In this document: positions 21,131-57,672 of the stretch, in pieces
Numbering within the stretch: position 1 is the stretch's first letter
Layout of the letters: each line of letters opens with the position of its first letter
From: Caballeronia grimmiae
GTDB taxonomy: Bacteria > Pseudomonadota > Gammaproteobacteria > Burkholderiales > Burkholderiaceae
Direction: 5' to 3'
Assembly: GCF_000698555.1 (NCBI RefSeq)
Contig: NZ_JFHE01000008.1
Span: 1 to 64,000 of the forward strand
DNA length: 64,000 nt
Notes under the pieces: model-generated
Told to the model about the DNA's origin: nothing
Databases searched by the model: none
The model's input: the letters and a program-made list of their open reading frames with translations, nothing else
Position numbers and translations under genes: made by a program

Positions 21131-23293
21131 TCAGAACTCCACGCGAGCATTGACCGCCAGGGTGCGCGGTTCGCCCGGTTGGATATAGTCGGCGTACTGG
21201 AATTCCCAATAGCGATGATTCGTCAGGTTATCGATCGCCGCACGCACGCCGACGTTATGTCCTGCAATCTTCGTCGTGTAAGTTGCGCCGAGACTGTAGA
21301 TCATGTAGCCCGGAACCTTGATGTCGCCCGCGGGACGCAGGCTCGTGTTGCCCGTGAACTTGGCCGATGCACCCAGCGTCAGACCCGGCACCACCGGCAC
21401 CGAATAGGCCGCGTGCGCAGTCGCAACGAAGCCCGGCGCGCCCGCCACACGATTACCGTCGTAGTCCGAACCTTTCTTGTACTTCGTCGCAATCCACATC
21501 ACATCGCCGCCGACGGTCCAGTCGCGGCTTAGCCGCACGTCCGCGCCTGCTTCCACGCCCTGAAACACGGACTCGCCATCTTCGACGAAGACGTTGTCGC
21601 TATTCGCGTACTGCGCGCCGCGCTCGATGCGGAACAGTGCGGCAGTCGCACTCCAGCGTTCGTTTTGCGTCTTGACGCCGACTTCGTACTGCTTGCTGCG
21701 CAGCGGATTCAGCACCGCGCCCGAATTCGCGTATGTCGTGCCGACGACGTTGCCCGCTTCGAGCGATTCGACGTAGCTCGCATAAAGGGTCGTGCCGGGC
21801 GTGAGCTTGTACATCAACGCGACCGACGGTGTGGCGATCCCGTTCTTCGAATACGTCGAAGTCGTCGCGCCGTCGACACCGTAACCGTGCTGTTCGTAAT
21901 TCGTGAAGCGCACGCCGCCGAGCACGGACCAGCGTGACGTCAGCGCGATCGTATCGCTCGCAAAAAGCGCCTTCTGCACGATGTCCGCATTGCGATATGT
22001 GGTGTAGCCGCCGCCGCTGTAGCGGTTCGTGTTCGGCTGATAGATGTTGCCGATGCCGATCTGATCGTAGAACGAGTTCGCGGTGTTGTCGTTCGTCTGC
22101 TTCTGATACGACGCGCCGAACACGAGTTGATGCTGGAACGGCCCCGTCTTCACCAGGCCCTCGGCCATGATCTGCCACGCGTTAAGCTGATGCCCCTCCT
22201 TGCCTTCGTAGCGCATATCGTTGTAGTCGCCGGCGGGATCGGTCAGGTAGAAGGTGCTCTCATTGCGATAACGCGTGCTCTTGCTGAAGCTATAAGTCGC
22301 CGAGATCGTCCAGTCCTGATTCAGGTTGTAGCGCAGGCCGGCCGTATAAAGCTGCAGGTTCGTGTTGAGGTGCTGATCGGGTGTGACGAGCGTGCTGCTG
22401 CCACCGCTCAACGGCACGGGCAGCGTGTTCCCAGTGAGTTCAGCGGTCGATATCGCCGTCGTGATGCCCGATGCATGCCGCTCCTGGTACAACGCGCCGA
22501 ATGTCGCGGTGAGGTCGCGGGTGAGGCGGGCGTCGGCGGACAGCGAGAATGAATCGCGCCGCACGTTGCCGTCGTTGTAGGTCTTGCCTTCCTCATGCGT
22601 GGCGTTGAAACGGTAACCGAACATGGCGTTGGGTCCGACGCGCCCCCCGAGATCGATATGCTCGGACCACACGTTGGTGGACGCATAGCCGACGTCGACG
22701 CTCGCGATCTGCCGGTCCGTGAGCGGCGGCTTCTTCGTCACGTAGTTCACGACGCCGCCCGGCGCGCCGAAGCCATACATGAAGCCGGAGAGACCCTTCA
22801 GCAATTGCACGCTTTCGAGTTGCTCGTAGGGCATCGTGATGCCGTAGGCGTTGAACGGCTGACCGTCGATGCGAAAGCCGTTCTGCCAGTCGAGCTGCAT
22901 GCCGCGCACGGTGATGTAGCTTGCCCATGCGTTATACGGATTGCTGTTGTCCGATACGGACGCGTCCTGCGAGAAGACATCCCCGAGCTTCTTCGCCTGC
23001 CGATCCGCGAGTTCTTCGCCGGTGACGATGGTCGTCGAGTAGGGCGTGTCGAGCTGCGTGCGCGTGCCGAGCGCGCCGGAGCTGACATCGCTCTGCAAGT
23101 GCTGCCCCTGGTCTCTTTCAGTGGTCGCGGTGACGGAGACGGCGGGAAGCGTCGCATCGGCCGCCCCCGGCGATGACGGCGATGCCCCGGCATCGTTTTC
23201 TTGCGCCATTGCGCAGTGGGTCGTGGCGAACAGGAGCAGTACCGCCAAGGTCGAGGGCCGGAGGGTCCATCCGCCGCATGCTGCTGTGGTCAT
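21131..23293 (-). CDS. TonB-dependent siderophore receptor (FauA-like)
   Basis: A 720-residue outer-membrane receptor. The signal peptide ends near CAMA-QEND. A TonB-box-like LPAVSVTAT follows, then the plug domain (GVVNYVTKKP and GMQLDWQNGFRIDGQPFNAYGITMP patterns) and a 22-strand-type barrel ending in the aromatic NARVEF. ATG 23293 is the start nearest the signal peptide. The plug pattern resembles the ferric alcaligin receptor FauA as I recall it, and a Fur-like palindrome 25 bases upstream is nearly identical to one before the alcaligin-type operon at 46709. I therefore infer it imports the siderophore made there. It is some 16 kb from that operon's end and has no neighbouring permease. 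Confidence 0.9.
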   Translation of the reverse strand: MTTAACGGWTLRPSTLAVLLLFATTHCAMAQENDAGASPSSPGAADATLPAVSVTATTERDQGQHLQSDVSSGALGTRTQLDTPYSTTIVTGEELADRQAKKLGDVFSQDASVSDNSNPYNAWASYITVRGMQLDWQNGFRIDGQPFNAYGITMPYEQLESVQLLKGLSGFMYGFGAPGGVVNYVTKKPPLTDRQIASVDVGYASTNVWSEHIDLGGRVGPNAMFGYRFNATHEEGKTYNDGNVRRDSFSLSADARLTRDLTATFGALYQERHASGITTAISTAELTGNTLPVPLSGGSSTLVTPDQHLNTNLQLYTAGLRYNLNQDWTISATYSFSKSTRYRNESTFYLTDPAGDYNDMRYEGKEGHQLNAWQIMAEGLVKTGPFQHQLVFGASYQKQTNDNTANSFYDQIGIGNIYQPNTNRYSGGGYTTYRNADIVQKALFASDTIALTSRWSVLGGVRFTNYEQHGYGVDGATTSTYSKNGIATPSVALMYKLTPGTTLYASYVESLEAGNVVGTTYANSGAVLNPLRSKQYEVGVKTQNERWSATAALFRIERGAQYANSDNVFVEDGESVFQGVEAGADVRLSRDWTVGGDVMWIATKYKKGSDYDGNRVAGAPGFVATAHAAYSVPVVPGLTLGASAKFTGNTSLRPAGDIKVPGYMIYSLGATYTTKIAGHNVGVRAAIDNLTNHRYWEFQYADYIQPGEPRTLAVNARVEF

Positions 23294-23317
23294 TTTTCTT
23301 CGTCGTGAACGTGTGTG

Positions 23318-23338
23318 AAATGCGAACCATTCGCATTT
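23318..23338. promoter_or_regulatory. Fur-like operator of the siderophore receptor gene
   Basis: A perfect inverted repeat with 9-base arms AAATGCGAA and TTCGCATTT around CCA, 25 bases before the receptor start. It has the GCGAAT...ATTCGC look of Burkholderia Fur sites. It matches the site at 46799-46817 almost base for base. Confidence 0.7.
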
Positions 23339-23564
23339 GAAGGACGCATTCTGACGGAGCGACAAAACTTTGTAAACCGGTGGATGGAAATTCGTCGGCG
23401 GCGGTTGGAAGGGCGTTAAGCCGGCGAACCATTGCGTCGTGGCGTCTTGCTGCGAAGTGGACGGGCGGTGGTTCAGCTTTCTTCTGTCGAATTACTCTGT
23501 TCGGTGCGACGCGAGTACACGTTGCTGCCGTCGCACGTGCATGTATTCGAGCCGCATGCCGCCC

Positions 23565-39560: not shown

Positions 39561-40754
39561 TCACTCCCACCCCTCACCAAGCGCCCGGCGATACCACGCA
39601 TGAAAGTGCCGCATGCCATCTTCTAGCGGCGACTGATACGGACCGGCATCGCTCACGCCACGACGATGCAGCCTCAGGCGACCCGCATCCATGCGCTCCG
39701 CGATCTCGTCGTCCTCGATCATCGTTTCCAGATACGCGGCGCGTTGCGCATCGACGAACTCGCGCTCGAACGCCGCGATTTCCTCGGGATAATGAAACTC
39801 GATGACGTTGAGCGTCTCCTGCGGCCCCTTGGGATACAGCGTCGAAACGACGAGCACGTGCGGATACAACTCGATCATGTGAGTCGGAAAATACGCGAGC
39901 CATATCGCGCCGAAAGCGGGCGGCTCGCCGCCGTCGAATGCCAGCAGCCGGTCGTGCCATGTTCCATAAACGTCGGAGCCGGCTTGAGCGAGCGCGTTGT
40001 TCACGCCGACTCTTTGCATGCTGTAGGTCTCGCCGAAATCCCATTCGAGATCGTCGCAAGTCACGAAGCGGCCCAGCCCCGGATGAAAGGGCGCGACGTG
40101 GTAGTCCTCCAGATAGACTTCGATGAAGGTCTTCCAGTTATAGCGGCATGTGTGAGTTTCCACGTGATCGAGGACATAGCCGGATAGATCGAATTCAGGG
40201 CGCGCGAAAACGTCCGCCAGGTCACGCGCTGGATCGCGCGGGCCTTCGTATAGCAGACCGTGGAAGTCGTGCAGTGGGAACCGCTCCAGATTGCGGCATG
40301 GCTTTCGATCAAATTCAGGCGCACCGATCAATTCGCCGTGGCCATCGTAGGTCCAGCGATGCAGTGGGCACACGATGTTGCCGCCCGTCGCTGCCAGATT
40401 GCCGCGCGTGAGCGTGATCGACTTCGCATCGCCGCCTGACATGACGCCGACGTTGCCCGCCTCGCCGCCAAGCATCAACGCTTGCCGGTGACGGCATACG
40501 TTGGACAGCAACTGCACGCCGTCTTGGCCGCGCACGAGCACGCGCGCGCCATCGTCCTGAGGCAGACGGCGCCAGTCGCCCGCGTTCGGCACCGTCTGCT
40601 CATGCGCGACGTAGCGAGCCGATTGCGCAAAGATGTGCGTCATTTCCCGCTCGAAAAGCGCCTCGTCGAAATAGGCGCTCGCGGGCAATTGCAAGCGAGC
40701 GTCCTGCGCATCGTCGGGCAGCGCGAGATGCGTGAGGTTGCTGATGTCGTTCAT
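39561..40754 (-). CDS. alcE: Rieske-type oxygenase of siderophore biosynthesis (AlcE-like)
   Basis: A 397-residue Rieske non-haem iron oxygenase alpha subunit. The Rieske ligands are C87-x-H89 and C129-x2-H132. The mononuclear iron site is in EVYLEDYHVAPFHPG (H219, H224). In Bordetella, AlcE belongs to the alcaligin operon and is thought to put the C-hydroxyl on the putrescine backbone. Being last in an alc-type operon makes the same role likely here. Between the two Rieske ligand pairs lie 39 residues, where 15-17 is usual: an insertion of about 20. It is 38 bases after the FhuF-type gene. Confidence 0.88.
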   Translation of the reverse strand: MNDISNLTHLALPDDAQDARLQLPASAYFDEALFEREMTHIFAQSARYVAHEQTVPNAGDWRRLPQDDGARVLVRGQDGVQLLSNVCRHRQALMLGGEAGNVGVMSGGDAKSITLTRGNLAATGGNIVCPLHRWTYDGHGELIGAPEFDRKPCRNLERFPLHDFHGLLYEGPRDPARDLADVFARPEFDLSGYVLDHVETHTCRYNWKTFIEVYLEDYHVAPFHPGLGRFVTCDDLEWDFGETYSMQRVGVNNALAQAGSDVYGTWHDRLLAFDGGEPPAFGAIWLAYFPTHMIELYPHVLVVSTLYPKGPQETLNVIEFHYPEEIAAFEREFVDAQRAAYLETMIEDDEIAERMDAGRLRLHRRGVSDAGPYQSPLEDGMRHFHAWYRRALGEGWE

Positions 40755-40792
40755 CGATGAATCCCTTTTGCGCGGACGCTGCGCACCTGCGA

Positions 40793-41587
40793 TCAGGCGT
40801 CGAGTGCAGCGTCCCGTTCCATGTTCAGGCGCACGATGCGCTCATGCTTCGCGAGGCGTGGACAGGTGCTGCACAGGTCGCCCTCGCCGCGTCGATAGTG
40901 ATAGCAGCAGGTCTTCCGGTCGAGTGCGAGCGCGCATGAACCGTCGGTGCGCTCGAACGCGAAATAGCCGCCGTGCCCGTCGAGGGCAAGCGCGTCGAGC
41001 CATCGCAGGCCGAGTGCTTGCACGTGCGTGTCGCTCCAATCGGGCCGCGCCTTGCGAGCGGCCAGCAACGCCGCAAGCACGACATCGGCCAGCGTGCCGT
41101 TCACCATCGCGGGATTGAGGCGGATGACCGGCATGAGGTCATCGCGCATCTGCCGCGAGCACGCGGCGATCTCGCTGGCAGCATGCGTGATGAGTGCCGC
41201 GCCTGCGCAGTGCTCGGGTGCGTGATCGGGCATGCGGACTTCGCGAGTCCATCCTCGATCGATTGGCTGCGCGATGCGTGCAAGCGATAACGACGCGCCC
41301 GCTGCATGCACGCCGATCACGCTCAGATAGACCGGCTGCCAGATTAGAACGCCCCAGCAGCGCGACGCCCAGTACGCACGTCCCGCTTCGGGATATGCGT
41401 TCGCCCAGTAAGCGAGCAGCGCGTCAAGCGCGGCGCGGTTCGGCGCATGTGGTCCGCCACGAACATGCACGTGATCGCCGACGCCTTCGCTCCGTGCGGT
41501 GTCGTCGACGATACCGCTCAGCCCCGGTACGAGTCGCGCCGCGACATCGAGCAGATTCTCCAACGTGCAGTTCGTGCGCTTGCTCAT
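40793..41587 (-). CDS. FhuF-type siderophore-iron reductase
   Basis: A 264-residue protein ending with the FhuF [2Fe-2S] signature: C227-C228-x10-C239-x2-C242 in KTCCYHYRRGEGDLCSTCPRL. FhuF-type proteins reduce Fe(III) on hydroxamate siderophores in the cytosol to release iron. Its start overlaps the IucA/IucC-type gene by four bases (41584-41587), so the two are coupled. By position it corresponds to alcD of the Bordetella operon; whether AlcD itself is FhuF-related I cannot confirm here. Confidence 0.88.
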   Translation of the reverse strand: MSKRTNCTLENLLDVAARLVPGLSGIVDDTARSEGVGDHVHVRGGPHAPNRAALDALLAYWANAYPEAGRAYWASRCWGVLIWQPVYLSVIGVHAAGASLSLARIAQPIDRGWTREVRMPDHAPEHCAGAALITHAASEIAACSRQMRDDLMPVIRLNPAMVNGTLADVVLAALLAARKARPDWSDTHVQALGLRWLDALALDGHGGYFAFERTDGSCALALDRKTCCYHYRRGEGDLCSTCPRLAKHERIVRLNMERDAALDA

Positions 41588-43476
41588 GCGTCGACGGATT
41601 CCGCGTTCGCATGAGCCACCGCAGTCGGCCTTGCACTCAGCGCGGCGCGACGTCCGGCAAGCGGATTGCGCAGGTTGCCCGCCATCTTCAGATTAGCAGC
41701 GGGATCGGCGAGATTCACCATCTGCAGGTTGTTGCCGAGCTGAAGGCGGTTCAGGCACGAATGCAGAAACTCGGGCGCGAAGAGGTCGTACTTGGCGAAC
41801 TTCGCCGCAAGTTGCGGATGTTCGTCCTGATAGCGCGCGACACAACGCGCCACTGCGTTCCAGAAGTCGTCTTCGCTGCACACCCGGTGCTCGACGAGAA
41901 TCTGGTTCACGTAGCGGAAAAAGCCGTCGAAGACATCGATAAAAATCGCGAGCAGCTTGACGTTCTCGGGCACATCGACGGCAAGGCGCTGCACGTTGGC
42001 GGGCAGGTTCGCGTCCTTGTTGAGAATTGCGGATTCCTCGGCGATGTCCTTCATGATCGCGCGCACCGGCACGTTGTTCTCCATCACCAGAATCAGGTTC
42101 TCGCCGTGAGGCATGAAGACCAGATCGTGAGCATAGAAGCAATGCACGAGCGGCGCGAGATAGGCATCCAGATAACGCTCGATCCACGCTGGCCCGCCGA
42201 GTCCGGAGGCCTCGATCAGCGCAGGCAGCAGCGCGCGGCCTTCGCGGTCGGTGTGAAGGAGCGCGGCCATCGTCATCAGGCGCTGTCCATCGGAGACGAG
42301 CGAGAGCGGATTCTCGCGCCACAGCGCGGAAAACATCTTCTTGTAAGGGCTATCCGTCTGAACGGCCGCCTCGTAGTAGCGATTCCTGAAGCCGAGCGAC
42401 GCCACCTCGCGCAGGATCGTGAAGCCCTTGCCGCGCAAGTAAGGATCGGCTTCGACCATGCCTTTGATGAAGTCGTTGATCGCCGGCGTGCCCGACATGT
42501 AGTAAGGCGAAAGGCCGCGCATGAAGCCCATGTTGAGAATGGAGAGGGAGGTCTTCACATAACGCTTCGACCTGTCCGATACGTTGAAGAACGTGCGGAT
42601 GGACTGTTGCGCGAGATAGCGGTCGTCGCCATAGCCGAGACAGATAATGCGATTCGTCGCCACATACGACGCAAAAGCGATCGAGAGCTTGTTGAACCAC
42701 TGCCACGGATGCGCGGGCATCAGGTGATAGTCGTCGGGGTTGCCACCGTGGGCTTCGATGATGCCGTGAAAGTGCGAGATGGCCGCGCCGCCGAGCTCTT
42801 CGTCCATCAGCCGGTCATAGTCGATATCTTTCGCGCTGTGAAACGCGGCGTTGTCCTTGTGCACCGCGAGCCATACGAGCTGGATCGGCGACGCCGCCTC
42901 TGGCGCGAACGCGCGATAGTCGCCCGCGTCGAAGCCGAGCCGTCCGTTGTTCGCGACGAAGCCGGGATGGCCTTCGCTCATCGCGGTTTCGATTGCCTGA
43001 AAATCGGCGCTAAGTAGCGCAGGCGTATCGGGTCCATCCTTCACTTGCTTATAGGCCGCACCGTAGAGCGTGCTGCTGATTTCATCGAGATAAATGGGAA
43101 GGTTGTCTTCCCGGATACCCAGACGCGCCTTCACATCGAGAATGAACGCGAGTGCGTCGAGGGCTTGCGGCACGCCCTCCTGCGTGCAGACGATGCTTTC
43201 TGCGCGAATGCTCCAGTGACGCAACGCCAGCAGACGCGCTTCGAACCGATAGACGCGCGTACCGTCGTCCGATTCGAGTTCATACCGCGCATAACCGTCG
43301 CTGGCTTCATCGGCAAGACGGCGTGGTTCGACGATCAATTCGTGAGCGTATTCGGCGATGGCCTTGCGAATCAGCATGCGGTTCGCTCGCTCCCAAACCT
43401 CGGGCGTAAGATGATGCGCGGCATCGGCGGGCTGAAGAAGCGTGTGTTGCATCGTGGCGCGAGTGTCGATGGTCAT
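41584..43476 (-). CDS. alcC: IucA/IucC-family siderophore synthetase (AlcC-like)
   Basis: A 630-residue NRPS-independent siderophore synthetase. Motifs include EGHPGFVANNGRLGF (the GHP-x-H/K-type substrate loop), HPWQWFNKL, RTFFNVSDRSKRYVKTSLSILNMGFMRGL (ATP and phosphate contacts) and FMPHGENLILVMENNVPVRAIMKDIAEES for nucleotide binding. The C-terminal FhuF-like thumb is present. AlcC condenses N-hydroxy-N-succinyl-putrescine units into the macrocyclic dihydroxamate alcaligin; this protein is inferred to do the same. ATG 43476 has AAGGAA nine bases upstream. It lies 20 bases after the acyltransferase gene and overlaps the reductase gene. Confidence 0.94.
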   Translation of the reverse strand: MTIDTRATMQHTLLQPADAAHHLTPEVWERANRMLIRKAIAEYAHELIVEPRRLADEASDGYARYELESDDGTRVYRFEARLLALRHWSIRAESIVCTQEGVPQALDALAFILDVKARLGIREDNLPIYLDEISSTLYGAAYKQVKDGPDTPALLSADFQAIETAMSEGHPGFVANNGRLGFDAGDYRAFAPEAASPIQLVWLAVHKDNAAFHSAKDIDYDRLMDEELGGAAISHFHGIIEAHGGNPDDYHLMPAHPWQWFNKLSIAFASYVATNRIICLGYGDDRYLAQQSIRTFFNVSDRSKRYVKTSLSILNMGFMRGLSPYYMSGTPAINDFIKGMVEADPYLRGKGFTILREVASLGFRNRYYEAAVQTDSPYKKMFSALWRENPLSLVSDGQRLMTMAALLHTDREGRALLPALIEASGLGGPAWIERYLDAYLAPLVHCFYAHDLVFMPHGENLILVMENNVPVRAIMKDIAEESAILNKDANLPANVQRLAVDVPENVKLLAIFIDVFDGFFRYVNQILVEHRVCSEDDFWNAVARCVARYQDEHPQLAAKFAKYDLFAPEFLHSCLNRLQLGNNLQMVNLADPAANLKMAGNLRNPLAGRRAALSARPTAVAHANAESVDA

Positions 43477-43496
43477 AAGAATATATTCCTTGTTGA

Positions 43497-44099
43497 TTAG
43501 TGATCCGTATTGATAACGCGATAGAAATCGTCGCGGGTGCAGAATGCGAGCGATGCGGTCTTGTCGCGGAACGCCACGTTTTTCCAGTAGACGAATCCGG
43601 CGGAACGATTGAGCGCATGGATGCGAGTATTCCCGGCATCCGGTTCGACGACGATGCGCTGCGCGTGAAGGTGGCTGAACAGGAACCTCATCACGGCGCG
43701 GAATACACGACGCGTATAGCCCGGAATCGGCGTCGCTGCCGGGCCGACGAACAGATGCATGCCGAGGTCGCCCCGCTCGGGGATGTAATGCTCGCCGACC
43801 TCTTCGTGCGCCGGGTCATACGTTTCGATGAGAAACGCGGCCTTGCCATGCCGATGCGCGAGCCAGGCATCGGCATGATTCGAATCGACGATATCCTGAT
43901 AGAACGCCGCCACTTGCGCGACGCTCCAGTCGCGCATGTTCCAGAACGCGGCACGATCCTCGATGAACCACCGATGCAGCGTCGGGGCGTCGTGTTGCGC
44001 GTCGAGCGGGCGGATGTCGAAGCCATCGATATGAGCGTCGGGTATCTCGCACGTTGCATCGAGCAGGGCGATTTCGTGAGCGGCAATATCAGTTCGCAC
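43497..44099 (-). CDS. alcB: Siderophore N-acyltransferase (AlcB/IucB-like)
   Basis: A 200-residue GNAT-type acyltransferase of the IucB/RhbD/AlcB group. FDIRPLDAQHDAPTLHRWF, ERAAFW-like DRAAFWNMRDW, WLAHRHGKAAFLIETYDPAHEEVGEHY, GDLGMHLFVGPA and VVEPDAGNTRIHALNRSAGF are typical. It should acylate N-hydroxyputrescine, with succinyl-CoA in the alcaligin pathway. GTG 44099 is chosen: AGGAG lies nine bases upstream and the gene then overlaps the exporter stop by 11 bases. Part of the six-gene operon. Confidence 0.9.
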   Translation of the reverse strand: MRTDIAAHEIALLDATCEIPDAHIDGFDIRPLDAQHDAPTLHRWFIEDRAAFWNMRDWSVAQVAAFYQDIVDSNHADAWLAHRHGKAAFLIETYDPAHEEVGEHYIPERGDLGMHLFVGPAATPIPGYTRRVFRAVMRFLFSHLHAQRIVVEPDAGNTRIHALNRSAGFVYWKNVAFRDKTASLAFCTRDDFYRVINTDH

Positions 44100-45318
44100 G
44101 GGCGCGGACTCCTGTGTCGGAAAGCTGGTCGGTATGAATGGATGCGGGCGCATCCGTACGCGGGCGGCCGAGTAGGTACACGCTGATGAGCGTGGTCGCC
44201 GCAAGGCCCGCCGCTGCAACGAAGAACGGCGCGCGCAGACCTGTCTCGTCGACGATCGCGCCCGCTGCGAAGGACGCGAGCAGCACGCCGACGTTCTGGA
44301 AGAAGTTGACGACGCTATAGTCCGACGCATAAGACGCGGGCGTGCTCAACGAGAACATGGTGACGTCGAGCTTGACGACGATCTGGAACAGCGCCCAGCC
44401 GAACATCACGCGGCCCACGATGATCCATAGCGGCGCCTCGATGCCTTGCAACAGCATGCCGGTCGCGCAGATCAGCAGATTTGCAATCAGGTGATCCGGC
44501 AGCCGCTTGCCGCGTTGCGCGATGCGCTTGTTGAGGCGCAGGGCCACCAGCGCAACCATGCCTGGAATCGCGAACACGAGACCGGGAACGAGTTCGCCCT
44601 GTCCGCCGGTGACCGACTGCCAATACGAGGACATGAACGGGCGGACCAGATACACGCAGAAGTCGAATACGAGCATGAGCAACGCAAGGCGCAGGATCGG
44701 CAGTCGCTTGCGCAGACTCGGGCGCACGGATGCGTCCCGCGCTTCGTCGGCGAAGCGGCAGCGTCGCGCGATGCGATGCGAGCGGATGAGGCTCATGCAG
44801 ATAGCCATCTGAACGAAATCGCCAGCGGCCATCGCGAAGATGCACGCATGCGCGCTCCACACCTGCATGACGAAGCCGCCAGCCGCGGCGCCTGCAATTG
44901 CGCCGAAATGCACGACGGCGGACAGCACGCCGATGGTATGCGCATGTGACTCTTTTGCTTCGAGCCGCATCATGTAGGGATACATCAGCAGGTAGCTGCT
45001 CTTGCACATGAACATGGCGAGCGAGAGGACCCAGAAGTGCGCGACCGTCGGAGCAAGATAGCTTGCCAGCGAGAGTACGCCCGCCGCGCATTGCGTGTAG
45101 ACCAGCAGATGCATGGCGTCCAGCCGCTTCGCAATGCGTGCCCATAGCGGCAGCGTCAACATGACGACGATGGAGATGAACGCCACGTAAGCGCCCGCGT
45201 GCAAGGGACTCGTCACGCCATATCGGGCGGCGAAGAACTGCGGATAGAACGGAATGAGGATCGCATCGCTTACGACGGCGAACGTCGTCATCGCGATGAT
45301 GGTATTGCGCAGATTCAT
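44089..45318 (-). CDS. MFS transporter, probable siderophore exporter (AlcS-like position)
   Basis: A 409-residue, 12-segment MFS protein starting MNLRNTIIAMTTFAVVSDAILIPFYPQFFAARYGV. A cytoplasmic loop (RCRFADEARDASVRPSLRKR) separates the two halves. Its ATG overlaps the hydroxylase gene's TGA (45315-45318) and its stop lies inside the acyltransferase gene's start, so it sits within the siderophore operon. In Bordetella the exporter AlcS is the counterpart but lies at the other end of the locus. Export of the finished siderophore is inferred from context. Confidence 0.88.
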   Translation of the reverse strand: MNLRNTIIAMTTFAVVSDAILIPFYPQFFAARYGVTSPLHAGAYVAFISIVVMLTLPLWARIAKRLDAMHLLVYTQCAAGVLSLASYLAPTVAHFWVLSLAMFMCKSSYLLMYPYMMRLEAKESHAHTIGVLSAVVHFGAIAGAAAGGFVMQVWSAHACIFAMAAGDFVQMAICMSLIRSHRIARRCRFADEARDASVRPSLRKRLPILRLALLMLVFDFCVYLVRPFMSSYWQSVTGGQGELVPGLVFAIPGMVALVALRLNKRIAQRGKRLPDHLIANLLICATGMLLQGIEAPLWIIVGRVMFGWALFQIVVKLDVTMFSLSTPASYASDYSVVNFFQNVGVLLASFAAGAIVDETGLRAPFFVAAAGLAATTLISVYLLGRPRTDAPASIHTDQLSDTGVRARAN

Positions 45319-46709
45319 TGCGCCTCCAGCGGCGACTTCACGAACGCGTCGGTGTCCGGCACGGAGAAGTCCTGCAATGCGATGCGTCGCTCGATCTTGT
45401 AGTGCTCGACGCCGGTAATTTCGCGCAAGATGCACGAGTTGCGATAGCAGCTCATGCCAAGGTCCGGGTTCGTCAGACCGTGGCTGTAGAGGCCTGCGTT
45501 TTGCACGAATATTTCGCGCTCGTTCAGGTCGATCGCATAGTTGCGCGAGAGCCGATAGCGTCCTTTTTCATCCCAGCGAATGCGGCTGCGAATGCCGTCG
45601 ATGAAGCGCGGCACGTTCTGCGTATAGCCGGTAGCGAACACCGCGCCATCGGTGACGTGCGTGTACTGGACGCCTTCATCGCGCTGAACGAAGCGCAGGT
45701 GATAGCAATCGTTTTCGTCGTAGTGACAACCAGTAAGCTCGGAATTGGTGATGAGCCGGGCGTTCGTGTGGCCGCGGCTGCGACGGTCGTCGAGACGGTC
45801 GTAAATCTGATTGATGAGCGATGCGTTGACGCCCTTGTAAAGACTGTCCTGCTTCGCGATGATGCTTTCGCGCACGCTGTCCGACAGGTTGAAGAAGTAG
45901 TCGATATAGTCCGGCGAGATCATTTCAAGCGTGAGCTTGGTGTTTTCCATCTGGAAGAAGCGGGGCGAGCGGGTGATCCACGTTAGCGAATAGCCGTGCT
46001 CGTCGCTCTCTTTCAACAGGTCATAAAATATTTCGGCGGCGCTTTGTCCACTCCCGATCACGGCGATGGAACGCTTCTTCTGAACTTGAGGCTTCTGTGA
46101 GGTGTACTGAGCGCTGTGGACACAACGATCCCGCACGGGCTCGCAACAGGCCGGCAACTGCGGTACCGACCCCACGCCGATGACGATCCGCTTCGCGCGA
46201 TAAACGAAGGGTTCCCCGCTGCGTACATGTTTGCCGGTGACTACATAGTGGCTGTCGTTCTCGTCGTAATCGATTCGCTGCACGTCCGAGCCGAACGCAA
46301 TGCTCTTTAGCTGGCGTATCGCCCATTTGCAGTAGCGGTTGTATTCAGCGCGGCTCAGGTAGAAGCGCTCGCGAATGTAATACGCATATAGCTTGCCTTC
46401 TTGCTTGCAGTAATTGAGAAAGCTGAACTTGCTCTTGGGATCGGCAAGGCTCACGAGATCGGCCAGAAACGGGTTCTGCAGCGTGGTGTCGTCGATCAGC
46501 ATGCCGGGATGCCAGTCGAAATCCTCGTTGCGTTCTAGGAATACGCCGCGCAGATCGCGTATCGGATCGGCGAGACAGGCGAGACTGAGATTGAACGGCC
46601 CGAGGCCTATGGCGACGAAGTCGAGCACAGGCGAGCGCGACGCATGGCGGCTTGCTCGTACGCTCGGATCGGACATGAAGTGAGTTTTATCTGGACCGCA
46701 CGTTGCCAT
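45315..46709 (-). CDS. alcA: N-hydroxylating monooxygenase of siderophore biosynthesis (AlcA-like)
   Basis: A 464-residue flavin-dependent L-lysine/ornithine/diamine N-monooxygenase. FVAIGLGPFNLSLACL holds the FAD GxGxxN site (G35-G37-N40), IAVIGSGQSAAEIFYDLL the NADPH site, and FATGYTQNVP the C-terminal ATGY motif. In alcaligin synthesis AlcA N-hydroxylates putrescine, and the operon context supports that substrate. ATG 46709 has GAGG nine bases upstream; ATG 46676 has none. It is first in the operon, with a Fur-like palindrome about 90 bases upstream, so iron repression is expected. Confidence 0.93.
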   Translation of the reverse strand: MATCGPDKTHFMSDPSVRASRHASRSPVLDFVAIGLGPFNLSLACLADPIRDLRGVFLERNEDFDWHPGMLIDDTTLQNPFLADLVSLADPKSKFSFLNYCKQEGKLYAYYIRERFYLSRAEYNRYCKWAIRQLKSIAFGSDVQRIDYDENDSHYVVTGKHVRSGEPFVYRAKRIVIGVGSVPQLPACCEPVRDRCVHSAQYTSQKPQVQKKRSIAVIGSGQSAAEIFYDLLKESDEHGYSLTWITRSPRFFQMENTKLTLEMISPDYIDYFFNLSDSVRESIIAKQDSLYKGVNASLINQIYDRLDDRRSRGHTNARLITNSELTGCHYDENDCYHLRFVQRDEGVQYTHVTDGAVFATGYTQNVPRFIDGIRSRIRWDEKGRYRLSRNYAIDLNEREIFVQNAGLYSHGLTNPDLGMSCYRNSCILREITGVEHYKIERRIALQDFSVPDTDAFVKSPLEAQ

Positions 46710-46798
46710 GTTCAGCTACCTCATGGATGACGAAGGTGAAAAAGGGCGCGCGTCGAGACACATTGGTCGTCGACACGAATCGGTATCTCTTATGCGTG

Positions 46799-46817
46799 AA
46801 TGCGAATCATTCGCTTT
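46799..46817. promoter_or_regulatory. Fur-like operator of the alcaligin-type operon
   Basis: AATGCGAATCATTCGCTTT, with arms GCGAAT and ATTCGC around a central C. It lies about 90 bases before the alcA-like start and differs from the receptor-gene site (23318-23338) at only two of 19 aligned positions. Confidence 0.7.
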
Positions 46818-46859
46818 TAAGGATGATAGGAAACGCCGTGTCGAAACGCAAGAGGGTTT

Positions 46860-47971: not shown

Positions 47972-48796
47972 CTACAAAGCCTCCGTCACCGCACGCAAAA
48001 ACTGTTGTGTCCGCTCATGCTGCGGTGAAGAGAAGAACTGCTGCGGCGGCGCTTGCTCAATAATTTTCCCTTGCGAAAAGAAGCACACGCGATCGGCAAA
48101 ATCCTTGGCAAACCCCATCTGATGCGTGACCATCAGCATCGTCAGATCGTGCTCCGCGCCGAGACGGCGAATTACATTGAGCACTTCACCACACAGCTCA
48201 GGATCGAGCGCAGACGTGACTTCGTCGAAGAGCATGACCTTGGGACGCATTGCAAGCGCACGTGCAATGGCGACGCGCTGCTGCTGTCCCCCCGATAGCT
48301 GCGACGGATAGTGATTGCACTTCTCGTCGAGACCGACCATCGACAACAGCTCGCGCGCCCGTTCGGCGGCTTCCTTCTTCGACAGACCCAGCACGCTGAT
48401 CGGCGCTTCTATCGTGTTCTGCAAGGCCGTCATATGCGGAAAGAGATTGAAGCTTTGAAACACCATGCCGATCTTGCTGCGCACCTTGCGAACATGCCGC
48501 GGTGACGCCGGTATCAGCTTGCCATTACGTATCTCATGCGTCAGCGGTTCTCCATCCACTTCGATGACGCCATGGGTCAGCGGGTCGAGCGTCATCAGCA
48601 CGCGCAGCAGCGTCGATTTACCCGAACCGCTCGGCCCGATGATCGCCACTTTCTCATTGCGTGCGACGTCGAGGTCGAGGCCATCGAGCACGGTCAGCGG
48701 GCCATAGCGTTTCGTCACGTTGCGAAAGCGCACGATCGGTGTGTCGGCATTGGCGGCGGCCGCCGCGCCCAGTGCAGGGTCGAGGTCTCGTTTCAT
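47972..48796 (-). CDS. ehuA: Ectoine/hydroxyectoine ABC importer, ATP-binding subunit
   Basis: A 274-residue ABC ATPase of the polar amino acid family. It has Walker A GPSGSGKST, the Q-loop in GMVFQSFNLFPHMT, signature LSGGQQQRVAIARAL and Walker B VMLFDEVTSALD, followed by the H-loop VTHQMGFAKD. ATG 48796 is preferred over an ATG seven codons upstream because AGGAG sits seven bases before it. It is the last gene of the ehuB-C-D-A run, 73 bases after ehuD. It powers uptake of ectoines through EhuC/EhuD. Confidence 0.93.
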   Translation of the reverse strand: MKRDLDPALGAAAAANADTPIVRFRNVTKRYGPLTVLDGLDLDVARNEKVAIIGPSGSGKSTLLRVLMTLDPLTHGVIEVDGEPLTHEIRNGKLIPASPRHVRKVRSKIGMVFQSFNLFPHMTALQNTIEAPISVLGLSKKEAAERARELLSMVGLDEKCNHYPSQLSGGQQQRVAIARALAMRPKVMLFDEVTSALDPELCGEVLNVIRRLGAEHDLTMLMVTHQMGFAKDFADRVCFFSQGKIIEQAPPQQFFSSPQHERTQQFLRAVTEAL

Positions 48797-48869
48797 CTGC
48801 TGCTCCTGAAGATCCATTTCCGTGCGCCGTCCGCCGGGTTCGAGTGTTCACCACGCGTGATGTCCTGCA

Positions 48870-49538
48870 TCATGGCAAGCGCACGCGTCGTTCCAGGTGA
48901 CGCACGCCCGAGGCGAAGGTCACGCTGATGATGAGAAAGAAGATGCCGGTCATGGTGATCGGCTCCAGATACCGGAAGGTCTCCGAACCAATATTCTTGG
49001 CTTGCTGCATCAACTCGACGACGGTGATTGCGGACAGCACAGGGGTGTCCTTGAACATCGCGACGAGATAGTTGCCAAGCGCGGGAATCACAGGACGTAT
49101 CGCCTGCGGAAGAATGACGCCGCTATACGTGCGCCACGGCGAGAGCGACAGCGCACACGACGCTTCCCACTGCCCACGCGCCACGCCGTTGAGCCCCGCG
49201 CGATACACCTCCGACACATAACAAGCGTAGTGAACCGCAATGCCGATGGTTCCTGCTGTCAGAGCGGACATCGTCAGCCCATAAAGTGGAGCGACATAGA
49301 ACAGCACATACACCTGAATCAGCAACGGCGTGCTGCGTATGAACTCGATGAAAAAGGCCGTGATCTTCGCAACAGGCGCGATGTCACTGCGCCGCAGAAT
49401 GGCGAGCACGAGCCCGAGAACCAGCGCTATCGCGAAGCCGATCAGCGTAATGCCGATGGTGTAGGTCGCCGCGCGTGCGAGTTGGGGGAGGATATGCAGC
49501 GCATACTTCACATCGAACAATTGGCTAAGTGTGCTCAT
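48870..49538 (-). CDS. ehuD: Ectoine/hydroxyectoine ABC importer, permease
   Basis: A 222-residue inner-membrane permease of the HisMQ type with about five hydrophobic segments. It has EFIRSTPLLIQVYVLFY early and the cytoplasmic coupling motif near residues 125-150 (EVYRAGLNGVARGQWEASCALSLSPW). It overlaps ehuC by four bases (49535-49538), so the two permeases are translated together and probably form the heterodimeric channel fed by EhuB. Confidence 0.92.
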   Translation of the reverse strand: MSTLSQLFDVKYALHILPQLARAATYTIGITLIGFAIALVLGLVLAILRRSDIAPVAKITAFFIEFIRSTPLLIQVYVLFYVAPLYGLTMSALTAGTIGIAVHYACYVSEVYRAGLNGVARGQWEASCALSLSPWRTYSGVILPQAIRPVIPALGNYLVAMFKDTPVLSAITVVELMQQAKNIGSETFRYLEPITMTGIFFLIISVTFASGVRHLERRVRLP

Positions 49539-50218
49539 GATGCAGCCCTCGGAACGGCACGACGCACGGCGACATGGCTGCTGACGCGCCGCTCGAAATA
49601 GCGCATCACGGTCGCGATGATCTGCGCCAGGACGAAGTAGATGAGCAGCGTGAGCGCAAAGATTTCGGCGGTCTTGAAGGTCGCTTCGTCGAGCTGGCGC
49701 GCGCGGAAGGTGAGGTCCGACAGCGTGATGAGCGACACGAGCGACGTCCCTTTTAGCAATTCGATCATCAGGTTCGTCGCGGGCGGCAATGCATAGATCA
49801 TCGCCTGAGGCAGCACGATCCGGCGCAGCCTTGCCGACGCCGGCATGTTCAGCGCGAGCGCCGCTTCATACTGGCCGCCCGGCACCGAACGCAACGCCCC
49901 GCGCAGAATCTCCGAACCGTACGCGCCGTAATGCAGGCCAAGACCGACGATCGCGACCGTGAACGGCGTCAGTTGGAGATTGAACGGCGGCAAGGGCAGC
50001 ACGAAGAATAGCCAGAACAACTGCACCAGGAGCGATGTGCCGCGAAAAATCTCGACGTACGCGTTGCCGGCCCATCTCAGGATTCGATACGGCGCCGTGC
50101 GCACCACGGTTGCAACGCACGCCATGATGATCGCCAGAAGAATACTGAAGATCGCGATCTGGATCGTGACGAGCGTGCCCTTCATCATCAAGGGTAGAAG
50201 CTCATTGAGGTCACTCAT
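49535..50218 (-). CDS. ehuC: Ectoine/hydroxyectoine ABC importer, permease
   Basis: A 227-residue HisMQ-type permease. It has EIFRGTSLLVQLFWLFFVLP in the first half and the ATPase-coupling loop EILRGALRSVPGGQYEAALALNM. It lies 50 bases after ehuB and overlaps ehuD. EhuC and EhuD resemble each other only moderately, as usual for paired subunits. The basic C-terminus ends RRAVPRAAS. Confidence 0.92.
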   Translation of the reverse strand: MSDLNELLPLMMKGTLVTIQIAIFSILLAIIMACVATVVRTAPYRILRWAGNAYVEIFRGTSLLVQLFWLFFVLPLPPFNLQLTPFTVAIVGLGLHYGAYGSEILRGALRSVPGGQYEAALALNMPASARLRRIVLPQAMIYALPPATNLMIELLKGTSLVSLITLSDLTFRARQLDEATFKTAEIFALTLLIYFVLAQIIATVMRYFERRVSSHVAVRRAVPRAAS

Positions 50219-50268
50219 GACGGGTCCTCGTTAATGGGTGCATGCAGCGCGCGCCTCGACTGAAACGT

Positions 50269-51123
50269 TTATCCGCCGCAGAGCTCAGGCGCTTTCTTGG
50301 TGGTCACGTTGGACTTGTCGAAGCCGAACGGACCGACCGTCTTCAAGTGATCGTCGGTGCCGAGCCATGCATGCAGTTCCTTGTTGACGGCATCGCGCAA
50401 GTCGGTGTCTTCGGGGCGAAAGGCCAGCGCGCCATAGCCCGTATGTTTGGGATCGTCATTGAACTGGCTGATGGCTTCCACCTGGGGGCCGCCCTTCGAG
50501 GCGAGACCCTTCATCGTCAGCGCGGTTCCGACGGCGGCATCCGCACGGCGTGCACGCACGGCCTGCAATTGCGCGGTCGTGTCGGGTACCTGAAGAATCT
50601 GATCGTCCTTGATGCCCGCCTCGCGCGCGTAGCCGAGTTCCGCCGTTCCCGCCATCACCGCGAGCTTGGTGTCCGGTTGTTTGGCGACATCGGCATAGCT
50701 GTGAAGATTCTTCGGGTTGCCCTTCATGGTCAGAAGCGTGTCGGGGATCTGGTACTGCGGATCGGCAAAGGCAACCTGCTTGCAGCGTTCCGGGGTGATG
50801 TACATGCCGGCCGCGATGACATCGAAACGGCCCGCCTTGAGGCCCGGAATCAAGGCGCCCCATTCTGTCAGCACCGCATCCACTTTCTTGACACCGAGCT
50901 TCGCAAAGACCTTCTTGGCGATTTCAGGCGATTCGCCCGTCACGGTGCCGTCGGCCGTCGTATAGGCAAACGGCGTTTCGTTTGCATAGCCGATGCGCAC
51001 CTCGCCCGTGCGCTGAATGCGCTGCAGCGTCGTCTCGGCGCTTGCGCTTGCAGCATAGCCCGTGAAACTCGCCGTCGCGACGCAAGCCGCTACCAGCATT
51101 CCAGACAGTCGCTTCGTCTTCAT
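50269..51123 (-). CDS. ehuB: Ectoine/hydroxyectoine-binding periplasmic protein
   Basis: A 284-residue solute-binding protein. The signal peptide ends at SASA-ETTL. The mature part begins RIQRTGEVRIGYANETPFAYTTADGTVTGESPEIAK, the EhuB pattern whose aromatics enclose the ectoine ring. Later FDVIAAGMYITPERCKQVAF and AVMAGTAELGYAREAG are typical of family 3 binding proteins. It leads the leftward importer operon and is divergent from enuR, with a 233-base control region between. A Cys pair (ERCKQ and ELCGG) may form a disulfide. Confidence 0.93.
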   Translation of the reverse strand: MKTKRLSGMLVAACVATASFTGYAASASAETTLQRIQRTGEVRIGYANETPFAYTTADGTVTGESPEIAKKVFAKLGVKKVDAVLTEWGALIPGLKAGRFDVIAAGMYITPERCKQVAFADPQYQIPDTLLTMKGNPKNLHSYADVAKQPDTKLAVMAGTAELGYAREAGIKDDQILQVPDTTAQLQAVRARRADAAVGTALTMKGLASKGGPQVEAISQFNDDPKHTGYGALAFRPEDTDLRDAVNKELHAWLGTDDHLKTVGPFGFDKSNVTTKKAPELCGG

Positions 51124-51274
51124 ATCGTTCCCGTTCGTATGGTTGGTCTTTGCTCGGAGAATCAGGCCGCATGACGCCGCGACACCGGAGAAACCCTTAT
51201 GGCTGAAGCCGTTGAGCGGCCTTTCAACGCAGCCACGATGCAGAATACAAAGCCATATTTGTGTTGCGATTGCT

Positions 51275-51290
51275 CTAGGACAATTATTTT
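51275..51290. promoter_or_regulatory. AGGACA motif in the ehuB-enuR region (candidate EnuR site)
   Basis: CTAGGACAATTATTTT lies between the divergent importer and regulator genes and shares CTAGGACA with the motif pair before eutB (52756-52790). The shared word next to the genes of one pathway suggests a common operator, probably for EnuR. Confidence 0.5.
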
Positions 51291-51356
51291 CGAACGCGCT
51301 TTTGCGCCACTATTGGGCATGGGCGAAGCGAACATGAGCATCAGGAGAGCGACAAG

Positions 51357-52754
51357 GTGAACGAACGATGGCGCGACGCGGTGCGCACGGGGCAGGGCGT
51401 GCAATCGAAATACAAGCGGCTCGTCAAGGCGATGGCTGCGGACATCGAGAGCGGCGCGCTTGCATCGGGCGCGCGCCTGCCGCCGCAGCGCGACGTGGCG
51501 GCGGACCTGCAAATCAGCGTGCAGACGGTCACCAATGCCTATAAGGAACTGGAGAGGCAGGGCCTCATCCGGTGCGAAGTCGGACGCGGCAGCTTCGTCA
51601 CGGCACGCGTGACGGAGACGATGTCCAATTACATGCTCGATACGGCGGAGCGCTCCGTCGTGGATTTTTCGATCGCGCGCATCGTTCATACGCCGGAGCA
51701 CGATGCGATGTGGCGTAAGGTCTGCGCGACGTTGTCGACCATCGAGGATCAACCCTGGATTCGCGCGTTCAGGCCCATCGCCGGCTTCGAGAACCACCGT
51801 CAGGCGGGCGTCGAATGGCTCGCGACGCTCAACATGCCCGCAAGCGCCGACACCTTGCTCGTGACCAACGGCGCCGCGCACGGCATTTTTCTGGCGCTGG
51901 CATCGACTGTCGGTCCGGGCGATACGGTGTTATGCGAAAGCCTCACCGATCACGGCGTGATTGGTTCGGCTAACGTGCTCGGCTTCACGCTCAAGGGTCT
52001 GGAAATCGATGAATACGGCATACGTCCCGAACATTTCGAGGAAGTCTGCGACAGCGAGCGCGTCAGCGCACTCGTTTGCACGCCGACGCTGAACAATCCT
52101 ACCGTCGCCCTGATGCCCGACTCGCGCCGCCGCGCCATCGCGCGAATCGCCGAGCGATATGGCGTGTATGTCATCGAGGACGATGTGTATGGAGCATTGC
52201 CCGCGAAAACGCAAACGCCGATCTCCAGCCATATTCCCGACCTCGCGTTCTATTGCACGAGCATGACCAAGTCGGTGCTGAGCGGCCTGCGCACGGGCTT
52301 CATGACCGTGCCGCGCCGTCTCGCCTTGCGCGCGGAAAGCGTGCTGCGCGTGAGCTGCTGGATGGCGACATCGCCGATGGCGGAAGTCACCGCGCGCTGG
52401 ATCATGGATGGCACGGCGCAACGTCTCGTGCAGATCCAGCGCGAACGTCTTGCGGCGCGGCAGGCCGTCGTGCGCGAGTTGCTCGGCGAATACGTGCTCG
52501 GCAGTCATCCGAATGCGTTGTCCGCATGGCTGCGGGTGCCAGAAGAATGGGAAGCAGAGCGCATGACGCGTGAGCTGCGCAATCGGAACATCGCGGTCAC
52601 ATCGCCCGATCCCTTTCTCGTGCGCGGCGCTGAGCGGCCCAACGCAGTGCGATTGTGCGTCGGCGCGGAGGTCGGCGAGCGCACGTTCCGCAGGGCCGTG
52701 GAAACGATGCGCGAGGTGTTCGGACAATATCCGCACGTGCACGACTTCAATTGA
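51357..52754 (+). CDS. enuR: MocR/GntR-type regulator of ectoine catabolism
   Basis: A 465-residue fusion of a GntR winged helix (about residues 15-80: YKRLVKAMAADIESGALASGARLPPQRDVAADLQISVQTVTNAYKELE) to an aminotransferase-fold PLP domain. FYCTSMTKSVLSGLRTGF holds the PLP lysine, and IEDDVYGALP and CTPTLNNPT are further cofactor contacts. EnuR represses ectoine genes until the catabolites alpha-ADABA or DABA react with its PLP. The start is GTG 51357 behind AGGAGAGC. It heads the rightward set; eutB begins 76 bases later. Confidence 0.93.
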   Translation: MNERWRDAVRTGQGVQSKYKRLVKAMAADIESGALASGARLPPQRDVAADLQISVQTVTNAYKELERQGLIRCEVGRGSFVTARVTETMSNYMLDTAERSVVDFSIARIVHTPEHDAMWRKVCATLSTIEDQPWIRAFRPIAGFENHRQAGVEWLATLNMPASADTLLVTNGAAHGIFLALASTVGPGDTVLCESLTDHGVIGSANVLGFTLKGLEIDEYGIRPEHFEEVCDSERVSALVCTPTLNNPTVALMPDSRRRAIARIAERYGVYVIEDDVYGALPAKTQTPISSHIPDLAFYCTSMTKSVLSGLRTGFMTVPRRLALRAESVLRVSCWMATSPMAEVTARWIMDGTAQRLVQIQRERLAARQAVVRELLGEYVLGSHPNALSAWLRVPEEWEAERMTRELRNRNIAVTSPDPFLVRGAERPNAVRLCVGAEVGERTFRRAVETMREVFGQYPHVHDFN

Positions 52755-52755
52755 A

Positions 52756-52790
52756 CTAGGACATTCAAAATCGATTTTTTAGGACATTAG
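52756..52790. promoter_or_regulatory. Direct repeats of AGGACATT before eutB (candidate EnuR operator)
   Basis: CTAGGACATT (52756-52765) and TTAGGACATTAG (52779-52790) are direct repeats whose AGGACATT cores start 23 bases apart, on either side of an A/T-rich stretch. Direct repeats are typical of MocR-family operators. A third related motif lies at 51275. Confidence 0.6.
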
Positions 52791-52830
52791 ACTGAGTTGC
52801 ATTGATCAACGAATAGCAACTCAGTCCCAC

Positions 52831-53793
52831 ATGTCCAGACTCTCGCTTGCCGATGTCTATCGCGCTCGCCAGCGCATTGCGGGCCGCGCGCTCGTCACGC
52901 CGCTCCTGCAATCGGTGGCGCTCAGCAAGGTGGCGGGCGTTGCGGTCTATCTCAAGCTCGAGACCGTTCAACCGACCGGCAGCTTCAAATTGCGAGGCGC
53001 GACCAATGCGCTGGCGCAACTGGCCGATGAAGGCTGCAAACGCGTCGTGACGGCGTCGACCGGCAATCATGGCCGTGCAGTCGCTTATGCGGCGCGCGCC
53101 CTCGGTATCGAAGCGGCCGTGTGCATGTCCTCGCTCGTGCCAAGGAACAAGGTCGATGCCGTAGCCGCGCTGGGTGCGCGCGTCGTCATCGTGGGCAAGA
53201 GTCAGGACGATGCGCAGGTGGAGGCGCAACGTCTCGTACGCGAAGAAGGCTATGCATTCGTGCCGCCGTTCGATGACCCGCGCGTGATTGCAGGCCAGGC
53301 CACTATCGGCATCGAGATCCTCGAAGCGCTGCCCGATGTCGCGACCATCGTCGTGCCTTTATCGGGCGGCGGCTTGTTCAGCGGCGTTGCATTCGCGGCC
53401 AAAAGCATTGCGCGCGCCACCGAAATGGTCGGCGTATCGATGGAACGCGGCGCGGCCATGCATGCCAGTCTCGAAGCAGGTAGAGCCGTCCATGTCGATG
53501 AACTCGAAACCCTTGCCGATTCGCTTGGCGGCGGTATCGGCCTCGATAACCGGCATACCTTCGACATGACGCGCGAACTGATCGACCGCGTCGTGTTGCT
53601 CGACGAGGTATCGATTGCACGCGGCATCACCCATGCGTATCGCGAGGAGCGGCTCGTCGTGGAAGGCGCGGCGGCGGTCGGCATGGCCGCGGTGCTCGAT
53701 GGCGCGGTTCGTTCGCAAGGACCGATCGTGATCGTCGTCAGCGGCTGCAACATTGATATCGACACCCATCGCCGTTTGATCGGAGACGCGTGA
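52831..53793 (+). CDS. eutB: Hydroxyectoine utilisation dehydratase EutB
   Basis: A 320-residue fold-type II PLP enzyme of the threonine dehydratase/serine racemase group. PTGSFKLRGATNAL carries the PLP lysine, TASTGNHGRAVAYAA the Asn/Gly contact loop, and VPLSGGGLFSGVAF the phosphate-binding glycines. EutB acts in the conversion of 5-hydroxyectoine products toward ectoine-type intermediates. Alone it would be called threonine dehydratase; the eutC, doeA and enuR neighbours decide the name. Its TGA overlaps the eutC start. Confidence 0.9.
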   Translation: MSRLSLADVYRARQRIAGRALVTPLLQSVALSKVAGVAVYLKLETVQPTGSFKLRGATNALAQLADEGCKRVVTASTGNHGRAVAYAARALGIEAAVCMSSLVPRNKVDAVAALGARVVIVGKSQDDAQVEAQRLVREEGYAFVPPFDDPRVIAGQATIGIEILEALPDVATIVVPLSGGGLFSGVAFAAKSIARATEMVGVSMERGAAMHASLEAGRAVHVDELETLADSLGGGIGLDNRHTFDMTRELIDRVVLLDEVSIARGITHAYREERLVVEGAAAVGMAAVLDGAVRSQGPIVIVVSGCNIDIDTHRRLIGDA

Positions 53794-54803: not shown

Positions 54804-54814
54804 GAGAGAGGACG

Positions 54815-56032: not shown

Positions 56033-56036
56033 CTCG

Positions 56037-57544: not shown

Positions 57545-57672
57545 AATATCGGCAAGCCAATCGCGATAAAACAGAAAAAACCTCAACGGAACAGGCGCGA
57601 AACGAAAAACAATCAGTGCGCCCGACGCCTAAAGTGGATGCATCGAACGCATCTTCCAGACGGAGACCTCAC

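Follow-up and report, generated by a model that had tools for sequence, protein, structure and literature searches.

Can a Caballeronia strain make alcaligin, a siderophore whose production is best known from Bordetella and Achromobacter, and how much of the known alcaligin system would it share? The question is raised by six adjacent genes in the first 64,000 bases (hereafter the window) of the Caballeronia contig NZ_JFHE01000008.1, a 202 kb contig of a 6.7 Mb genome. The genes are here called A, S, B, C, D, and E in their order on the minus strand, from 46709 to 39561. The operon is real and intact, with its motifs in place, and quite probably serves alcaligin biosynthesis, export, and iron release, with alcaligin as the likeliest product. 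This view of the catalytic steps, product, receptor, and regulation draws on gene content, homology, tree placement, and promoter conservation. It would extend alcaligin production to a Caballeronia lineage with an insect isolate as its nearest named relative.

A six-gene operon and its proteins

Each of the six open frames matches its expected family in Pfam, and neighboring frames overlap or nearly touch. A and S overlap as ATGA (4 bases), S and B by 11 bases, and C and D by 4, with gaps of 20 bases between B and C and 38 between D and E (longest frames for A and C). The identical six genes in identical order recur in C. grimmiae at 92 to 97% identity over best segments, so the arrangement is not due to chance. 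A preliminary description of this DNA had named six coupled genes of these families on one strand, and in this it was right. Around the operon, 31.9 kb align over their full length, at 94.8%, with plasmid p1 (916,501 bp) of C. grimmiae Lep1A1 (source Leptoglossus zonatus), in which the operon is located on a 0.9 Mb plasmid; the host is thus a Caballeronia near C. grimmiae. The gene C synthetase has a single match in the window's genome.

An amine N-hydroxylase, an acyltransferase of the Gcn5-related N-acetyltransferase (GNAT) family, and a nonribosomal peptide synthetase (NRPS)-independent siderophore (NIS) synthetase of the AlcA, AlcB, and AlcC kind occur together in the window. Gene A encodes a Lys/Orn N-oxygenase (PF13434, 407.6 bits) with the motifs GxGxxN, GxGxxA, and ATGY, 57 to 65% identical to its Achromobacter counterparts over best segments. 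Its top solved matches are 5o8p of the desferrioxamine pathway (492 bits), which we take to be E. amylovora DfoA, 6xbb (470 bits), and the putrescine N-hydroxylase 7us3 (420 bits). The top NCBIfam model for A, histamine N-monooxygenase, reaches 360.7 bits, under its cut-off of 700, and this label was not used. Gene B matches Acetyltransf_8 (PF13523, 151.6 bits with the longer frame) and, among solved proteins, the N-terminal part of dfoC, 5o7o (136 bits). Gene C carries IucA_IucC (260.3 bits) and the C-terminal domain of that family; its top solved match is 2x0o, an ‘alcaligin biosynthesis protein’ (AlcC), at 888 bits, followed by dfoC (762) and DesD (714). Gene S, a member of the major facilitator superfamily (MFS), scores 73.7 bits to MFS_1 with the longer frame. 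Gene D matches FhuF_C in Pfam (24.2 bits) and the NCBIfam model TIGR03950, ‘siderophore ferric iron reductase’, at 178.7 bits, above the cut-off of 137.9. It has the motif CC-x10-C-x2-C and is 37 to 41% identical to Achromobacter D; a PDB search gave no match for it at E 1. Gene E combines Ring_hydroxyl_A (PF00848, 129.1 bits) and Rieske (PF00355, 36.4 bits) domains with the motifs CxH, CxxH, and ExxH-x4-H.

Table 1 Coordinates of the operon, its predicted promoter elements, and the candidate receptor in the window. Starts of S and B are those of the annotated C. grimmiae orthologues.
Feature	Coordinates	Strand	Assignment	Remarks
Gene A	45315..46709	-	AlcA-type flavin adenine dinucleotide (FAD) amine N-hydroxylase	464 aa in longest frame; start may be 46676 (11 codons shorter) by C. 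grimmiae annotation
Gene S	44089..45318	-	MFS exporter of the A-S-B-C type, PF07690	409 aa with C. grimmiae start
Gene B	43497..44099	-	AlcB-type GNAT N-acyltransferase, with succinyl as the predicted donor group	GTG start; 200 aa with C. grimmiae start
Gene C	41584..43476	-	AlcC-type NIS synthetase	Start may be 43452 (8 codons shorter) by C. grimmiae annotation
Gene D	40793..41587	-	AlcD / FhuF-like ferric-siderophore reductase
Gene E	39561..40754	-	AlcE-type Rieske oxygenase, putrescine C-hydroxylation predicted by homology
Predicted promoter	46798..46851	-	TTGCGT (46851-46846), 17-base spacer, TATCAT (46828-46823)
Fur-like inverted repeat	46814-46798	-	GCGAATGATTCGCATTC	Upstream of gene A
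Candidate TonB-dependent receptor	21131..23365	-	FemA/BauA-like, plug and barrel	C. grimmiae start puts 5' end at 23209

The product of the synthesis core

AlcE was reportedly assigned as a putrescine C-hydroxylase by Li et al. in 2016. In the proposed pathway, putrescine would be supplied by the genome's own ornithine/lysine/arginine-decarboxylase-type enzyme; an OKR-type decarboxylase is indeed encoded there. The AlcE-type oxygenase would hydroxylate a putrescine carbon and the AlcA-type flavoenzyme a nitrogen, in either order, after which the AlcB-type transferase would add a succinyl group and the AlcC-type synthetase would link two units and close the ring to yield alcaligin. The MFS protein would export the product, and the FhuF-like protein would reduce the ferric siderophore.

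A scan of the species-genome collection gave 217 synthetase relatives, and the best 80 of these were joined by those of the window, C. grimmiae (L005), Cupriavidus campinensis (L006), Pantoea (L007), and a genome called G145 (L189). The resulting 85 synthetases were placed in a quick-search tree with support from the Shimodaira–Hasegawa-like approximate likelihood ratio test (SH-aLRT) only. An AlcE homologue is found at 54 of the 85 loci and a DfoJ-like decarboxylase before A at 17, and no locus carries both; the other 14 include eight with neither gene and six cut by a contig end before AlcE. Put differently, the adjacent decarboxylase occurs in 0/54 AlcE-bearing rows vs 17/31 others, with L028 and L038 uninformative since their contigs begin less than 350 bases from A. 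In the tree, the 54 AlcE rows form one group with three ‘neither’ and five cut rows (SH-aLRT 97), and the window's C lies inside it. The 17 decarboxylase rows form the other with three ‘neither’ rows and one cut row (SH-aLRT 84), and two Chitinibacter rows stand outside both. As a calibration, Halomonas gemina ATCH28, which makes desferrioxamine E by nuclear magnetic resonance according to a passage in PMC10291192, has a decarboxylase and no AlcE at its locus (L096). Achromobacter denitrificans produces alcaligin, as stated in part of PMC10913535, and all eight Achromobacter loci examined, from other species of the genus, carry AlcE. Two Herbaspirillum rows (L080 and L081), sister to Achromobacter in the synthetase tree, have AlcR- and AlcS-like genes and no AlcE in the locus.

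Gene E itself can be assigned with a second tree. At E 1e-90, most Burkholderiales sampled carry AlcE homologues (163 of 200 genomes, 90 of 108 genera), and the window's genome encodes a second AlcE-type Rieske oxygenase at G000:C13:122860-123921 (L190). The tree, midpoint rooted and with some long branches, holds 54 operon and 32 solo proteins. A 100/100 branch sets all 54 operon enzymes and four solo proteins (family f4) apart from the other 28 solo proteins, including this second copy, and the window's E groups with the operon AlcE of Achromobacter and Bordetella genomosp. 2 at 100/100. By this placement, the operon's E belongs to the alcaligin type and did not arise by recent duplication of the second copy. 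The alcaligin-type membership proposed at the outset holds up, with support from AlcC as the best solved match of C, from the position of C in the AlcE-bearing clade, and from that of E among operon AlcE proteins. The solo enzymes are 50 to 73% identical in the rows listed, which include partial matches, and genes A to D were not found beside them (about 1.5 kb on each side for L157 to L185). It is probable that they make 2-hydroxyputrescine, and the second copy is probably a polyamine enzyme. Ralstonia pickettii contains 2-hydroxyputrescine according to a passage in PMC7857480, where reference titles present the compound as a chemotaxonomic marker in Burkholderiales, a use that the wide carriage of the AlcE family fits. 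With an AlcE-like family in most sampled Burkholderiales genomes, this family is a likely source of the operon AlcE.

Several points weigh against alcaligin as the product. The split between AlcE and decarboxylase is numerically strong but reflects few independent changes (three pairs, sign test p = 1). The identity of gene C is 61 to 64% to Achromobacter vs 63 to 64% to the decarboxylase-bearing Pseudomonas luteola and its kin, and with such near-equal values percent identity was dropped as a marker of class. The exporter, receptor, and regulator all differ from those of the Achromobacter system. In blastp, gene S finds nothing in Achromobacter AlcS better than E 1.7; with no detectable similarity, S is not a relocated AlcS. 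Finally, related pathways can be permissive, as in Shewanella algae B516, which makes bisucaberin and avaroferrin besides putrebactin according to a passage in PMC8891985.

With incomplete C-hydroxylation or a permissive synthetase, the operon could yield a related macrocyclic dihydroxamate or a mixture, for instance of putrebactin, mono-hydroxylated putrebactin, and mixed putrescine/cadaverine rings. A receptor class unlike FauA agrees with this, as does G145, whose synthetase is 77 to 78% identical to the window's and whose locus (G145:C2:2415000-2432000) has A-S-B-C and a divergent receptor of the FemA/BauA-like kind. Neither D nor E was found in the 17 kb of this locus. The core can therefore exist without E, and a product lacking C-hydroxyls is predicted for G145 unless an AlcE copy elsewhere acts. 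Nevertheless, G145 is the exception in a synthetase clade where 21 of 22 rows have E, the window's own E is of the operon type with its motifs intact, and a Pantoea DfoJ query finds no match in the window at E 1e-3, all of which makes such a product unlikely here. A desferrioxamine- or bisucaberin-type cluster using cadaverine is highly improbable: A and B do find their best solved matches in proteins of the desferrioxamine pathway, a result that is indecisive as AlcA and AlcB are unnamed in those listings, but all 17 decarboxylase clusters lack AlcE and sit in the other synthetase group, and the window has no DfoJ-like gene by the above query.

Two side observations can be added. At the G145 locus, the cluster is followed by a gene on the opposite strand for an aromatic amino acid lyase. 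The window's genome also encodes, at G000:C2:259271-266550 (L191), an NRPS of two modules with a terminal reductase domain; as a source of a second siderophore it was rejected. Eight frames were scanned over 19 kb there, and none is an N-hydroxylase, though two of them match no family.

Control, export, and uptake

Upstream of gene A, TTGC, TATnAT, and parts of the Fur-like block are invariant in 12/12 aligned regions, namely those of the window, C. grimmiae, and 10 of 19 Paraburkholderia loci. These sequences are related, and their conservation is support and not proof. The Fur site has 12/19 consensus matches, a score equalled in 15/300 Markov shuffles and hence weak by itself. A tblastn search with Achromobacter AlcR gave no match in the window (the part of the genome searched) at E 1e-3, in agreement with the preliminary description, which had reported no such regulator. 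A single promoter under Fur repression probably drives the operon, with no activator of the AlcR type. No Fur claim is made for the receptor gene, before which 243/300 shuffles gave a site as good. In Cupriavidus campinensis, a small sigma-70-family factor, similar to extracytoplasmic function factors, lies just before the operon (L006 5853-6410); the window has none such.

In classical Bordetella the alcaligin genes are ordered as in Achromobacter, with the exporter outside A-B-C. Among the 54 AlcE-bearing rows, S lies between A and B in 46 (45 loci and the window). The remaining eight, all Achromobacter, read A-B-C-D-E followed by an AlcR homologue, an AlcS-type MFS protein, and a FauA-type receptor; at L054, the AlcR homologue is AraC-type and the receptor scores 1204 bits to 3efm. 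Bordetella genomosp. 2 is among the 46 with S second; Bordetella petrii MY10, where the contig ends after C, has S second too. Exporter-second is the common arrangement among these loci, and the Achromobacter one is the exception. The second position of the exporter, earlier held up as a departure from the Bordetella locus, is thus true of the window but no peculiarity of it, and the MFS protein concerned is not AlcS-like. Most clusters with the decarboxylase have a member of the S family as well. Queried with AlcS, the window gives a single weak match (25%, E 1e-4); it lies at 62099-62608 and is not part of the operon. Elsewhere, D stands apart on the opposite strand in the Stutzerimonas and Halopseudomonas loci, and in another Caballeronia operon carrier (L186, G015:C403) S is split into two tblastn pieces, through decay or assembly faults.

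There is no receptor gene within the operon, a point that the preliminary description did not raise. In the same window, 16 kb beyond E, lies a candidate that scores 167 bits to FemA, 162 to BauA, and 75 to FauA, and in which no STN domain was found. It is 57 to 61% identical to the receptors divergent from A in 10 Paraburkholderia loci. Receptors at the 53 AlcE loci outside the window are of several kinds: 13 are FoxA-type, 10 are FemA/BauA-like as in the window (the Paraburkholderia set just mentioned), nine are of a fourth kind, and eight are FauA-type, with 13 not found, where some fetched stretches were short. The fourth kind comprises seven from Stutzerimonas or Halopseudomonas, and Roseateles and Methylibium at 45 to 49%. 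None of the eight full receptors of the window's genome is FauA- or FoxA-type; the seven other than the candidate reach at best 28% identity, and the candidate alone is near an operon-linked kind. Uptake would probably proceed through this FemA/BauA-like receptor and not through a FauA orthologue, and on balance it is the best candidate partner of the operon.

As a settled partner, however, it was not upheld, since its nearer relatives are mostly in genomes lacking the operon. In genus g60 (144 genomes), taken to be Paraburkholderia because G616 and L038 have identical contig coordinates, receptors at least 66% identical to it occur in 29 genomes, one of them with a synthetase, while the 58 to 61% kind occurs in 38, of which 22 have one. 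It is conceivable, and a view we hold open at somewhat under even chances, that ferric alcaligin enters otherwise and the candidate serves foreign siderophores. Burkholderia cenocepacia takes up alcaligin by FhuA according to a passage in PMC10866019. Among three operon carriers found in the window's genus, a receptor match at E 1e-150 is missing from G014, and the copy in G015 (G015:C200) is interrupted by four stops, through decay or assembly faults; both are draft assemblies. On the other side, besides the lack of any FauA- or FoxA-type alternative in the genome, the window-kind receptor (E 1e-220) is present in 23/23 synthetase-bearing vs 44/121 synthetase-less genomes of g60 (Fisher 2e-9, uncorrected for kinship), and in Caballeronia sp. 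M1242 the receptor gene stands directly behind a remnant of gene E.

The M1242 locus is also informative about loss. On a 0.91 Mb plasmid of this strain (source field Homo sapiens, ETA), at L008 12001-15044, residues 149 to 395 of gene E remain in two frames, immediately ahead of a receptor that shares 91% identity with the window's over 646 residues. At E 1e-100 no synthetase match turned up in genome G045, which is probably M1242 since its receptor match has identical contig coordinates. M1242 would thus have lost the synthesis genes and kept the receptor, whose intactness is uncertain given a stop in the extended frame. Carriers might in this way become users of alcaligin made by others.

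Among the neighboring genes, an RtcB-type RNA ligase (23565-24815, minus strand) lies directly upstream of the receptor gene and is not at that place in M1242. Upstream of the operon, alignment with the annotated C. grimmiae plasmid places ectoine uptake and breakdown genes (ehuBCDA, eutB, doeA, and doeB) at 47972-58472, with EhuA at 47972-48817.

Comparison with known systems

An alcaligin-like cluster is already in print. A passage of PMC13184526 reports that an ‘alcaligin-like siderophore’ is encoded by P. tropica ABIP 659, and from its strain number we infer that it is PSP659, one of the strains compared here. Alcaligin is also among the siderophores annotated in 38 root isolates in PMC12352056, in a passage that does not name the producer. 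A literature search, with coverage mostly outside subscription journals, found no published alcaligin-type cluster in Caballeronia; the present case adds another member.

Taken jointly, the loci may be read, tentatively, as one alcaligin core with at least four sets of transport and regulation genes, and with a Caballeronia receptor that can outlive the synthesis genes and turn carriers into users of the alcaligin of others. The first set, AlcR, AlcS, and FauA, is that of Achromobacter. The other three would pair the S exporter with a FoxA-type receptor (Ralstonia, Variovorax, Polaromonas, and Bordetella genomosp. 2), with a FemA/BauA-like receptor and probably Fur alone (Paraburkholderia and Caballeronia), or with the fourth receptor kind (Stutzerimonas). 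An alcaligin system might then be defined by a synthesis core that is kept while exporter, receptor, and activator are exchanged between lineages, and this exchange around a stable core is the more interesting part of the finding.

Desferrioxamine-type clusters (Pantoea, Halomonas, and Pseudomonas luteola) resemble the window in A, B, and C, and those of Halomonas and Pseudomonas in the S family as well, but they differ in having a DfoJ-like decarboxylase beside A and no AlcE. All six genes recur in the window's order in the A-S-B-C-D-E clusters of Paraburkholderia (such as P. tropica PSP659), Ralstonia, Variovorax, Polaromonas, Cupriavidus, and Bordetella genomosp. 2. Those of Paraburkholderia have a C 80 to 86% identical to the window's and, in the ten loci aligned, the same promoter block. 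The clusters depart from the window in their receptors, which in ten Paraburkholderia loci diverge from A, and in Ralstonia, Variovorax, Polaromonas, and Bordetella genomosp. 2 are FoxA-type and lie upstream on the same strand. The Bordetella/Achromobacter system (AlcABCDE, AlcR, AlcS, and FauA), represented here by eight Achromobacter loci in place of classical Bordetella, differs in its exporter, in an AlcR with no counterpart in the window, and in its receptor class. It shares with the window A, B, C, D, and E in equal relative order, a C whose best solved match is AlcC, and an E of one clade.

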